Under the pieces are notes generated by a model that had not been told where the DNA came from, made no database searches, and was given only the letters and a program-made list of their open reading frames with translations. This document shows, in pieces, positions 2,714 through 5,482 of a stretch of DNA of 5,482 bases. How positions within the stretch are numbered: position 1 is the first letter of the stretch; each line of letters begins with the position of its first letter. Made by a program: the position numbers and the translations under genes. The stretch covers positions 1 to 5,482 of the forward strand of contig JADLHH010000474.1 in assembly GCA_020848855.1 (NCBI GenBank). The letters are read 5' to 3'. This stretch comes from Anaerolineae bacterium. GTDB lineage: Bacteria; Chloroflexota; Anaerolineae; Aggregatilineales; Phototrophicaceae.

Positions 2714-3232
2714 TTACAGCCGGAACGCCGCCGGCAAACTCCCCGCCCATGCGCGGATGGCGTTCCAGTCGCGGTGGTCGCCTTCCGACCACACGCCGAA
2801 CAGCACGCTCAGCCGGAACTTGATGCGGTCGCTCAGCTTCGGCACTTTGCCGATATCCAGTATGCCGGCGAAGAAGCCTTCGCTCACCGGCGACACCAGC
2901 GAGCGCACCGGCTGGAGCCAGTCGACCACCGCTGAACGATAGCGCGGGTTCTTCATCGCCATCGTCATACAAACGGCGAATGTGGCGAGCGGCTTGCCCG
3001 CCAGTTCCGTCCGGTGCGCCTGCACAAACTGCATGGCTTCCGGCAGCCACTGGCGATTTTGAATCGCGCTGCCGACGACAACTGCCCGATAGGGTGTGAT
3101 GTCCTTCACATCCTCCACACGGCGAACGTCGACCTCCGCGCCGCTTTCGCTCAGGGTTTTGCCGATGGCTTCGGCGACTCCGGCGGTCGAGCCGGTCATG
3201 CTCGCATAGGCGACCAGAATTCTATCCGACAT
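2714..3232 (-). CDS. Flavodoxin-fold protein (HemG-like flavodoxin family)
   Basis: A 172-residue cytosolic protein of flavodoxin fold. The first beta strand ILVAYAS runs into the FMN-phosphate loop SMTGST (11-16). VVVGSAIQ (51-58) matches the second flavin-contacting loop, and the C-terminal GDHRDWNAIRAWA (151-163) resembles the GxTDxRDWxxIxxWA ending of the flavodoxin branch that includes protoporphyrinogen oxidase HemG. It probably binds FMN and carries out electron transfer or a dehydrogenase reaction; the exact substrate is not visible. I chose the ATG at 3232 because a near-perfect ribosome binding site GGGAGGTG lies five bases upstream. The in-frame ATG at 3256 would place that site inside the gene and add the uncharacteristic residues MSLEGGVA. 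It is divergent from the chelatase gene, so a role in tetrapyrrole metabolism is possible but unproven. Confidence 0.85.
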   Translation of the reverse strand: MSDRILVAYASMTGSTAGVAEAIGKTLSESGAEVDVRRVEDVKDITPYRAVVVGSAIQNRQWLPEAMQFVQAHRTELAGKPLATFAVCMTMAMKNPRYRSAVVDWLQPVRSLVSPVSEGFFAGILDIGKVPKLSDRIKFRLSVLFGVWSEGDHRDWNAIRAWAGSLPAAFRL

Positions 3233-3237
3233 AGCGA

Positions 3238-3245
3238 CACCTCCC
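3238..3245 (-). promoter_or_regulatory. Strong ribosome binding site that fixes the flavodoxin start
   Basis: The minus strand reads GGGAGGTG five bases before the ATG at 3232-3230, nearly the full anti-Shine-Dalgarno complement. It falls between two in-frame ATGs (3256 and 3232) and therefore favours the inner one. Confidence 0.8.
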
Positions 3246-3396
3246 TCAAGTGACATCAGAAGTTCAACCTAGCAAGCGGGTCATCGCTCGACCAGTGACG
3301 GATTTCCCCATTTTGCATGTAGTTTGTAATACAGCGCGCGGTCGGGTCTGGTGGGGCTGAAATCTGTGGCACAGCAGACCAAGCCGATTGTGGCGA
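3246..3396. other. Divergent intergenic region, flavodoxin / chelatase
   Basis: No gene is seen here. It should contain the leftward promoter of the flavodoxin gene, but I found no pair of boxes worth calling. Two small symmetric elements are present: CTGTG-G-CACAG at 3364-3374, and an inverted repeat GGTCTG (3345-3350) / CAGACC (3375-3380) enclosing it. Either could be an operator or a chance match. Confidence 0.4.
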
Positions 3397-3462: not shown

Positions 3463-4578
3463 ATGGCAAAACGACCTCCGGTGTACCCGTTCACGGCAAT
3501 TGTCGGGCAGGACAAGATGAAAACTGCCCTGATTTTGAACGCGATTGATATGCGAATCGGCGGCGTGCTGATTCGCGGCGAGCGCGGCACGGGTAAATCG
3601 ACCGCCGCCCGCGCGCTGGCAGCTCTGCTGCCCGAAGTCGACGTGGTCGCCGACTCACCCTTCGGCGACGACCCGAAGCACCCTGAAACGTGGTCGGACG
3701 CGGTGAAGGAACGCGCCGAGCGCGGCGAGCAGCTTCCGGTTGCGCGACGTAAGATTTCGTTCATTGACTTGCCGGTGAGCGCCACCGAAGACCGCGTCGT
3801 CGGCACGCTCGACATCGAAAAAGCGATCCAGAAGGGCGAAAAGAAGTTCGACCCCGGCGTGCTGGCGAACGCCAATCGCGGCATTCTCTACGTCGATGAA
3901 GTCAACCTGCTCGATGATCATGTCGTCGACCTGCTGCTCGACTCGGCGGCGATGGGCATCAACGTGGTCGAGCGCGAGGGCATCAGCTTCTCGCACCCGG
4001 CGCGCTTCATCCTGATCGGCACGATGAACCCGGAAGAAGGTGACCTGCGCCCGCAGTTGCTCGACCGCTTCGCGTTCTCGGTCGAGGTGCGCGGCATCCA
4101 CGATCCCGCCGAACGGATGGAAATCGTCCAGCGGCATATCGCCTACGAGGACGACCCCGAACGATTCCGCGAGGCATGGGCGGGCGAAGAAGAACGGCTG
4201 TCGGATCGCATTGCCGCCGCGCGCGAGATCGTGGACGACGTGGGTTATTCGCGCCGCGACCTGTTCACCATCGCCACATTGACCAGCAACCTGCACATCG
4301 ACGGACACCGCGCCGACCTGGTGATCCTGAAGGGCGCGCGCGCCAATGCCGCTCTGCATGGACGCGACGCCATCAGCCAGAGCGACATTCTGCTGGCGCT
4401 GGAACTGGCAGTCCCGCACCGCCTCAAGCGCGGCCCGTTCACCGACGGGCAGATGAGCATGGCGGAAATCGAGCGCCAGATGGATCAGATCGAGTCCGAG
4501 TGGGGCGAGGGCGAAGAAGCCGACCAGCGCACGGACGACGGTCAGCAGGAAGCGGTCAAAAAAAAAGTCCCTCGGTAG
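3463..4578 (+). CDS. chlI: ChlI/BchI-type AAA+ chelatase ATPase (zero-frame product, small subunit)
   Basis: A 371-residue AAA+ ATPase of the Mg/Co-chelatase small-subunit family. It has the family opening YPFTAIVGQDKMK (8-20), Walker A GERGTGKST (39-47), Walker B ILYVDEVN (141-148), the insertion INVVEREGISFSHPARF (166-182), sensor 1 GTMNPEEGDLRPQLLDRF (186-203), and a sensor 2-like GARA (291-294). Such subunits form ATP-driven rings that power metal insertion into a tetrapyrrole with a medium (ChlD) and a large (ChlH/CobN) subunit. The ATG at 3463 is chosen over the TTG at 3448 because GAAGG lies five bases upstream of it and the TTG has no ribosome binding site. The last residues are an acidic, low-complexity stretch ending KKKVPR, encoded by nine A and stopping at TAG 4576-4578. 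The same reading is the N-terminal half of a fused ChlD protein if the ribosome shifts -1 on the A run. It may serve cobalamin rather than chlorophyll synthesis; the window alone cannot decide. Confidence 0.92.
   Translation: MAKRPPVYPFTAIVGQDKMKTALILNAIDMRIGGVLIRGERGTGKSTAARALAALLPEVDVVADSPFGDDPKHPETWSDAVKERAERGEQLPVARRKISFIDLPVSATEDRVVGTLDIEKAIQKGEKKFDPGVLANANRGILYVDEVNLLDDHVVDLLLDSAAMGINVVEREGISFSHPARFILIGTMNPEEGDLRPQLLDRFAFSVEVRGIHDPAERMEIVQRHIAYEDDPERFREAWAGEEERLSDRIAAAREIVDDVGYSRRDLFTIATLTSNLHIDGHRADLVILKGARANAALHGRDAISQSDILLALELAVPHRLKRGPFTDGQMSMAEIERQMDQIESEWGEGEEADQRTDDGQQEAVKKKVPR
4547..4566 (+). promoter_or_regulatory. Putative programmed -1 frameshift site (A9 slippery run with upstream SD-like sequence)
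   Basis: Nine consecutive A occupy 4558-4566, read in the zero frame as AAA AAA AAA. The heptamer A_AAA_AAA at 4560-4566 allows perfect re-pairing of both tRNAs after a -1 slip. Translation would then continue at AGT (4566-4568) in the frame of the von Willebrand A half. Without a slip, a TAG comes three codons after the run. An SD-like AGGAAG (4547-4552) lies seven bases before the heptamer and could stimulate the shift, as in dnaX. RNA polymerase slippage that adds one A would give the same fusion. A sequencing error (nine instead of ten A) is the competing explanation. Confidence 0.65.
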
Positions 4579-5482
4579 CCACCCAGTCCGATGAGGAGAT
4601 GCCGGATCTCGGTCAAACCGACCCATCCCCTCAGAACGTGTTCGATAACCACGACGCGTACTGGTGGGAAGGCGGCAAAAAGGTCGAGTCCGGCGCCGAA
4701 TTCGCCCCGCGCAAGCTGCAAACCACGCTCGACCAGATGACCCGCAGGCAAGCGGGTCGCCGGTCGCGCACGCACACCGACCGCAAGCGCGGGCGCTACG
4801 TGCAGGCACGCCCCGCCAACGGCAAAACCGACGACATCGCCTTCGATGCCACGCTGCGCGCCGCCGCCCCGCTGCAGCGGGGGCGCGAGGAGCAGAAGCG
4901 CGCAACCGGCATGGCGTATGCCCTGCGCAAGAGCGACCTCCAGCGTAAGGTGCGCGTCCGCAAAACCTCCAACCTGATCCTGTTCGTGGTCGATGCCTCG
5001 TGGAGCATGGCGGTCTCCGAGCGCATGACCGCCACCAAAGGCGCGATCATGTCGCTGCTGACCGACGCCTACCAGCGCCGCGACCGGGTCGGTTTGGTCG
5101 TGTTCCAGAAAGACCGCGCGCAGGTCATCCTGCCGCCGACCAACTCGGTCACGCTGGCGAAGCAGGCGCTTCAGAATATCCCGGTGGGCGGCAAGACGCC
5201 GCTGGCTGCCGGGCTGCTGCTCTCCTACGAGATCATCCACCGCGAGAAAACCCTGCACCCGGACATCATCCCGCTGATGATCCTGCTCACGGATGGCGCG
5301 GGCAACGTCTCGATTGGCAAGGACTCGCCGCAGGAGGAAGCCCACCGCATCGCCGAGCAGATCAAGCACGAGGAAATCCGCACCGTGACCATCAACATGG
5401 AGCACTCGGCGTTCGACCAGGGCTTGGCGGCGAAGCTGGCGGATCGACTGGGTGGACCGTGTTACTCGCTGGCGCAGATGCG
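4566..5482 (+). CDS. chlD: ChlD/BchD-type medium subunit: linker and VWA domain, -1 frame continuation of the chelatase gene (partial at right edge)
   Basis: This frame is open from the A run to the window edge, 305 residues. Joined after codon 368 of the ChlI part it gives a fused protein of at least 673 residues, as in known ChlI-ChlD fusions annotated as magnesium chelatase subunit D or putative cobaltochelatase. In order come an acidic/Pro linker, the family segment VFDNHDAYWWEGG, a basic Arg/Lys-rich part (RRQAGRRSRTHTDRKRGRY), DATLRAAAPLQR, and a von Willebrand A domain. Its metal-ion site is intact: DASWS (511-515 of the fusion), Thr579 in GGKTPL, and Asp611 in LLTDG. The visible end GGPCYSLAQM is near the usual C-terminus, so probably only a few tens of residues are missing. 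There is no credible independent start: the first in-frame ATG (4599) directly abuts GAGGAG with no spacer and would drop only part of the linker. This favours expression by frameshift, although translational coupling from the TAG at 4578 remains possible. Confidence 0.87.
4592..4633 (+). other. Possible RNA stem-loops downstream of the frameshift site
   Basis: Two small perfect stems follow the slippery run: GAGAT (4596-4600) / ATCTC (4606-4610) with a five-base loop, and TCGGT (4609-4613) / ACCGA (4617-4621) with a three-base loop. They overlap by two bases, so they are alternatives or need trimming. TGAGG (4592-4596) can also pair with CCTCA (4629-4633) and enclose both. The first stem begins about 30 bases past the run, further than the usual 5-9 bases, so a stimulatory role is uncertain. 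Confidence 0.25.

Follow-up and report, generated by a model that had tools for sequence, protein, structure and literature searches.

The 5,482-nt stretch of Anaerolineae DNA analyzed here (contig JADLHH010000474.1 of assembly GCA_020848855.1), which we refer to as the window, carries a chelatase-like gene in which the frame for a ChlI-type AAA+ ATPase ends just past a run of nine A (A9) and a frame for a VWA half lies in -1; this observation is confirmed. Combining the codon reading at this junction with the comparison of orthologues, we suggest that this one gene very probably gives rise to a short ChlI-type AAA+ product and a long ChlI-VWA product by a -1 shift on the A9 run. In this model, (i) many readings would stop at TAG 4576 and yield the ChlI-type AAA+ protein, (ii) a fraction would change to the -1 frame on the run and proceed through linker and VWA half, giving a ChlD-like ChlI-VWA protein, (iii) the A-run itself would determine the shift (neither a stem-loop nor a Shine-Dalgarno helper was found to be conserved in the window's clade), and (iv) the two products may assemble in a mixed AAA+/VWA complex acting on a client other than CobN or ChlH. 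BchI-BchD and the gamma and tau forms of DnaX are analogues of such a mixed complex.

The window is one more member of the published fs-chlD family. Programmed frameshifting in fs-chlD genes, including those of Anaerolineaceae, is described in the parts of PMC3711429 (2013) and PMC9227772 (2022) covered here, a scope that holds for every paper cited in this text. As in those genes, a ChlI frame runs into an A_AAA_AAR site with a stop just past it and the VWA half in the -1 frame, and the window has the features by which the family is recognized: the two halves in order in adjacent frames, the site in register, and conservation of the site among orthologues. Taken by itself, the window is one additional example of a frameshift already published; the comparison across the class matters more.

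Reading frames at the junction

The features of the gene in the window are as follows.

3463..4578, +, open reading frame of the short product, ChlI-type AAA+ ATPase, from ATG 3463 to TAG 4576-4578 (371 aa; a start at TTG 3448 would give 376 aa)
4547..4552, +, Shine-Dalgarno-like AGGAAG, 7 nt upstream of the heptamer; not conserved
4558..4566, +, A9 run, zero-frame codons AAA AAA AAA
4560..4566, +, in-register -1 slippery heptamer A_AAA_AAA
4566..5482, +, -1 frame, predicted linker and VWA half of the long product; no stop before the window end
4576..4578, +, zero-frame stop TAG, 9 nt past the run
4599..4601, +, first ATG of the VWA frame past the run; rejected as a private start

The initial annotation had described a complete ChlI-type frame ending just past the A9 run, and the sequence bears this out. 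The zero-frame product matches TIGR02442 over residues 8-362 (493 bits), TIGR02030 (419 bits) and AAA_lid_2/Mg_chelatase in Pfam and NCBIfam, and its best matches in the PDB are ChlI (8osf, 6l8d) and BchI (1g8p). At the junction the zero-frame codons read GTC AAA AAA AAA GTC CCT CGG TAG, which places the heptamer in register as had been claimed. The -1 frame is open from 5' of the run to the window end, and the 305 residues that it encodes downstream of the run match VWA, TIGR02442 and ChlD models in the same databases. The NCBIfam matches of either half alone are partial and lie under the whole-protein cut-offs of those models. The VWA domain had been called intact; the open frame and the VWA matches hold, but the half is cut by the window end and only part of the long product is visible. 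The run is the sole A9 or T9 in the window on both strands, and at least one such run arises in 2 of 200 dinucleotide shuffles.

Conservation of the run and reversed polarity

Orthologues were collected in two steps. Scanning contigs with the VWA half gave 71 loci, nearly all from uncultured Chloroflexota and of Anaerolineae type (the exceptions are L005, L013, L067 and L069, with L058 unplaced); L021, whose contig begins at the junction, was set aside before the junctions were counted. The second set comes from 150 genomes drawn evenly from the class of G027, the genome of L051; this class is presumably Anaerolineae. The VWA half was matched in 136 of these genomes and the ChlI half, at E 1e-45, in 132. 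The main orthologue is present in 128, in 39 as one continuous frame of at least 660 aa and in 89 as two frames; we retrieved all 39 continuous loci and 83 of the two-frame loci, the other 6 being already in the first set. Together, the two sets hold 193 sequences with both halves, including one duplicate (L046 and L102 are the same locus).

In the first set, the D half lies in -1 behind an in-register A_AAA_AAR site in 66 of 71 sequences (the window and 70 loci), the runs being A9 in 45, A8 in 16, A10 in 4 and A6 in 1. The zero-frame stop lies 1-27 nt past the run in these 66 sequences, 37 of which have the 9-nt spacing of the window, and within 1-55 nt across the loci examined. The remaining five are L018 (A10, one continuous frame), L047 (A8, halves in a +1 relation), L065, in which A9 and the -1 relation are seen by eye and the D half is broken by an N stretch at an assembly gap, and the two continuous loci L067 (Omnitrophota; fused) and L069 (Selenomonadales; another architecture). 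Among the two-frame loci of the class sample, 78 of 83 have the -1 arrangement with a run (A9 50, A7 20, A8 5, A10 3); the other five are L104, which has an early stop, L126 and L139, which combine A10 with a +1 relation, and L153 and L154, which have no run and a +1 relation. In total, 144 of the 193 sequences carry the VWA half in -1 behind an in-register run of A6-A10. The alignment of orthologues that the initial annotation had called for thus finds run, register and nearby stop conserved. In L126 and L139 the halves would be joined only by a +1 change, for which the loss of one A in the transcript would be easier than a ribosomal -1 shift; an assembly error could also account for these two junctions.

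The codons of the run point in the same direction. In the 66 sequences, Lys codons within the run are AAA in 165 cases and AAG in 6, as against 827 AAA and 878 AAG elsewhere in the same genes, a count in which the definition of the site itself permits AAG only at the last codon. An earlier version of this test used 33 loci selected for A9, in which AAA is present by choice, and we rely instead on the window's clade of 28 sequences (27 tree rows and L018), which were picked regardless of the run. In this clade 83 of the 84 run codons are AAA, none is AAG and 1 is another codon; all 28 sequences have AAA at the first two positions and 27 have it at the third. Five further Lys columns in this half, by contrast, carry AAG in 8-23 of the 28 sequences. 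Given that the run codons are never AAG in the clade while other Lys columns mix both codons, we conclude that selection acts on the run at the level of the nucleotide sequence.

The continuous orthologues are informative in their own right. Together with L018 they number 40. In 33 of them the same junction still has a run of 6-10 A, which includes the in-register heptamer in 31. In each of the 33 run-bearing fusions the -1 frame meets a stop 0-29 nt past the run, as against an expectation of 15.6 +/- 2.4 of 33 and a maximum of 21 in 500 rounds of synonymous resampling; the 29-nt limit was chosen after the data had been seen and the loci are treated as independent, uncorrected for kinship. In the linker background 19-20% of positions have such a -1 stop. 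These -1 stops are not relics of -1 ancestors with one additional A, since a stop inherited in this way would now be read in the +1 frame. By analogy, the run-bearing fusions may be the same device in the polarity of Escherichia coli dnaX, in which a short and a C-terminally extended long product (gamma and tau) arise from one A-rich slip site (PMC5009743): as in E. coli dnaX, the long product is encoded in the zero frame and the stop lies in -1, whereas the window has the short product as its default. For dnaX, too, genes of reversed polarity have been recorded (PMC5009743). In the fs-chlD literature covered, outside which Antonov 2020 (Mol Biol Evol) lies, we found no description of fusions that keep the run and have a -1 stop shortly behind it; PMC8211752, PMC7242693 and PMC8651126 likewise contribute nothing on such fusions.

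A single FastTree tree of 190 sequences requires at least 18 changes of polarity, a count that includes poorly supported branches and the seven runless fused loci. Since 18 of the 33 run-bearing fusions also have a +1 stop within 30 nt (15 have none), each of these 18 could be a misread -1 form, and the polarity changes may partly be homopolymer errors of assembly. L018 and the related L019 differ by a single A: L018 is fused with A10 (L018:2052-2061) and L019 is shifted with A9 (L019:5993-6001). L018 retains the stop used by L019, reflecting either an assembly difference or a polarity switch caught in the act.

Origin of the long product

Several observations weigh against the proposal that this gene makes two products by a shift on the A-run. 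The standard -1 arrangement is absent from 49 of the 193 sequences, namely from the 40 continuous orthologues and from nine others (L047, L065, L067, L069, L104, L126, L139, L153 and L154). Seven fused loci lack a run of at least 6 A, and two more have only A6 without an in-register heptamer. Such uninterrupted orthologues without the run had been named at the outset as evidence against two products; they make up 7 of the 193 sequences, and the 33 other fusions keep both the run and a close -1 stop. Each genome with one of the seven runless fusions has a single ChlI match, which suggests that the short product is not required in every case. A second ChlI-like gene is present in 37 of the 50 genomes examined among those of the 71 loci (the relatives' genomes). 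At E 1e-45 it is found in 13 of 39 genomes with the fused form and in 24 of 89 with the two-frame form, so its presence does not depend clearly on polarity. Finally, the hairpin past the run in the window is no stronger than the background of its own gene (z +0.8, where z compares the best hairpin directly past the run with windows further down the same gene). We nonetheless hold to one gene with two products: the initial annotation's proposal of -1 recoding on the A-run is supported by the run, register and stop of the orthologues and by reporters of the family, in which three cassettes tested in E. coli gave 63% frameshift at 11 A, 40% at 9 A and 10% at 7 A (PMC3711429).

Two explanations would do without any shift. 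The A9 run could be a sequencing or assembly error for A10, which would make the gene an ordinary ChlI-VWA fusion. In the class, forms without a frame break occur often (in 39 of the 128 genomes that have the main orthologue), and L018 has A10 where L019 has A9. The run and the stop 9 nt on recur, however, in dozens of separately assembled relatives, in which the run codons avoid AAG, and conservation in separately assembled genomes makes a homopolymer error in the window very unlikely, indeed almost excluded. Alternatively, the VWA half could be a separate gene translated by coupling from a start of its own. An ATG lies at 4599 in the VWA frame and some of the tested pairs also initiated at the downstream gene (PMC3711429), but only 8 of 26 close relatives keep Met at this position (the remaining 18 have Q, T, S, D or E), the orthologues conserve the A-run, and in 40 of them the two halves form one continuous frame; we consider a separate gene quite improbable. 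ATG 4599 was rejected as a private start on the grounds that Met is poorly kept and that the upstream GAGGAG abuts it without spacing, in agreement with the original description of the VWA half as lacking a good start of its own.

If the run is shifted upon, the question becomes whether the ribosome or the RNA polymerase slips. We take ribosomal -1 slippage as the default since the published family is described in these terms, with polymerase slippage as a near-equal alternative at the window locus; from the codons, both routes would yield the same protein. In the latter explanation, which could well be correct, the polymerase slips on A9, and ordinary translation of mRNAs with 10 A gives the long product, the route taken by Thermus thermophilus dnaX. 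Several points are in its favor. The last run codon in the window's clade is never AAG (27 AAA and 1 other of 28) although A_AAA_AAG would keep the ribosomal site, and neither a stem-loop nor a conserved Shine-Dalgarno sequence was found in this clade. Of 23 fused loci with A9 or A10, 17 meet a +1 stop no more than 30 nt past the run, as against 0 of 7 for A7 and a background of 29%, and stops in both other frames are the pattern described for Thermus dnaX (PMC5009743, PMC1088944). The A10 loci L126 and L139, which need a +1 change, fit as well. On the other side, L068 has only A6 with A_AAA_AAG and five other loci have AAG in the site, the A7 and A8 forms mostly have stem-loops, which are typical of ribosomal shifting, and the +1 stops in fusions may have been inherited from -1 ancestors to which one A was added, as L018 beside L019 suggests. 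T. thermophilus dnaX, a case of transcriptional slippage on nine A, shares the A9 run with the window and the stops in both frames with many fused A9/A10 orthologues (PMC1088944, PMC5009743); the Anaerolineae loci are known here from DNA alone.

Run length and the stem-loop vary together across the loci. Among -1 forms, z averages -2.25 for A7 (n = 20, each of them below -1), -1.02 for A8 (n = 21, 12 below -1), +0.19 for A9 (n = 94, 18 below -1) and +1.12 for A10 (n = 7), and the one A6 locus has +1.95; among fusions the average is -1.86 for A7 (n = 7, 5 below -1), -0.12 for A8 (n = 1), +0.27 for A9 (n = 17) and +0.12 for A10 (n = 6). Among distinct loci, 37 of the 50 with A6-A8 have z below -1, as against 19 of the 123 with A9-A10. 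Thus, short runs (A7-A8) mostly come with a strong stem-loop and long runs (A9-A10) mostly without one, and this trade-off fits the reporter values at 11, 9 and 7 A (PMC3711429). The trade-off is only suggestive because kinship-corrected pairs are too few: supported branches give 8 such pairs, of which on average 3.6 go the same way and 0.3 the other way (median p 0.25), and the 66-row tree gave 2. In PMC9227772, fs-chlD genes are detected by their broken frame, and RNA structures past the site are described as usual. Such a structure is not obligatory for the family, and the window and most of its A9 relatives have none above background. A single 134-nt fold past the run reaches z -2.2, a value measured against shuffles only and for the window only. 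A conserved downstream RNA structure in the window's clade was rejected, none having been found among the relatives compared. A conserved Shine-Dalgarno sequence 5' of the site was likewise rejected: AGGAAG is present in the window and absent in most relatives in a 24-row alignment of close loci hand-picked for A9, and because it is not conserved we do not count it as part of the signal.

Function, significance and other features of the window

The initial annotation had taken the two products for the small and medium subunits of a cobalt chelatase. This identity agrees with the similarity to TIGR02442 ("putative cobaltochelatase"), for which each half alone stays under the whole-protein cut-off, and with the published model for other fs-chlD genes (PMC9227772). 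The distribution of partners speaks against it. PF02514, the family of the large subunit, has matches in 3 of the 50 relatives' genomes, on which the counts of chelatase partners rest and in which RpoB is matched in 47, and in 14 of the 150 class genomes (13 over the cut-off). In 8 of these 13 (G053, G090, G094, G121, G146, G160, G165 and G184), CobN stands beside its own second I and D pair, encoded within about 9 kb on the CobN contig and apart from the main orthologue. Cobalamin synthase (CobS) is present in 11 of the 50 relatives' genomes, and G003, G025 and G027 among them have a match to neither PF02514 nor CobS. No cobalamin genes were seen among the neighbors shared by several loci, B12 genes other than the CobS synthase not having been searched. 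Of the partners that had been proposed for a genome search, cobN/chlH and a separate chlI, the relatives thus mostly have the second and rarely the first. We consider it unlikely that the two products are cobalt chelatase subunits, and most Anaerolineae copies are probably misnamed as "magnesium/cobalt chelatase". This agrees with published observations: fs-chlD occurs in Anaerolineaceae, in some of them beside a separate chlI, some fs-chlD members are found without CobN/ChlH, and genomes such as that of Brevefilum fermentans have no large subunit at all, the function being called unknown (PMC9227772). The counts of the large subunit given here extend the observation on the missing subunit to the class.

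We suggest instead that the gene would encode a remodelling complex of AAA+/VWA type, the client of which would be neither CobN nor ChlH. Like the BchI/BchD and ChlI/ChlD Mg chelatases (PDB 1g8p, 2x31, 8osf), it combines AAA+ and VWA domains with intact Walker and metal-ion-dependent adhesion site (MIDAS) residues, but no H subunit was detected in most of the host genomes examined and the AAA+ domain is common to both products. Conservation was scored over 190 sequences (the 193 less L067, L069 and L104) at columns that we take to be the Walker, MIDAS and sensor 2 positions. The Walker A K is present in 190 of 190 and the Walker B D and E in 189 of 190, with one gap; the Walker A K, S and T, the Walker B D and E and the following N and R are identical in all ungapped rows, as are the MIDAS D, S, S, T and D (1-2 gaps). 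One Walker A glycine varies (156 sequences have A and 34 have G), as do one Leu position and two positions close to sensor 2. Since the catalytic residues are conserved, both halves are under constraint.

Gene neighborhood was rejected as a clue to function, as neighbors are common only to parts of the tree. In a comparison based on crude gene calls and uneven flanks, the commonest neighbor family lies beside 15 of 72 loci, none of them in the window's clade, and within this clade no family exceeds 5 of 28. The 15 loci (e.g. L036, L041, L046 and L052) fall in one part of the tree and share the same divergent upstream neighbor, often less than 200 nt away, a repeat protein that by its look is putatively ribosomal protein S1-like (S1-domain).

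Combining these data, we tentatively propose a broader scenario, which we regard as possible rather than probable: a near-core AAA+/VWA gene of Anaerolineae, in most genomes unaccompanied by a chelatase large subunit, might use an A-run as a two-product switch with a default that flips, the shift being ribosomal and aided by a stem-loop at A7-A8 and due to polymerase slippage at A9-A10, and the products forming a remodelling complex that is not a chelatase. If so, these loci would form a natural series: selection would maintain two products, and both the genetic polarity and the biochemical mechanism would drift. The comparison across the class suggests that ribosomal and transcriptional slippage may replace each other within one orthologous gene, and that plain-looking ChlI-ChlD fusions may also make both products. 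The loci of the class form a defined set of natural cassettes for how two products persist as the mechanism changes.

Three genes elsewhere in the window are also of note. A multicopper oxidase (198-1190, -), the start of which reads like a putative twin-arginine leader, adjoins a two-domain cytochrome c (1399-2238, +), and neither has a homologue among the called genes in the flanks of the relatives. A flavodoxin-domain protein (2714-3256, -), divergent from the chelatase-like gene, has no homologue among the called genes at the other loci and a below-cut-off match to menaquinone-dependent protoporphyrinogen IX dehydrogenase. Two perfect 28-nt palindromes lie in intergenic DNA at 138-165 and 2251-2278 and have the same outer arms, GTAGGGGC...GCCCCTAC. 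In 953 kb of the relatives' loci only one similar palindrome was found, an imperfect one in L043, and given this single similar site the palindrome may be a lineage-specific repeat.

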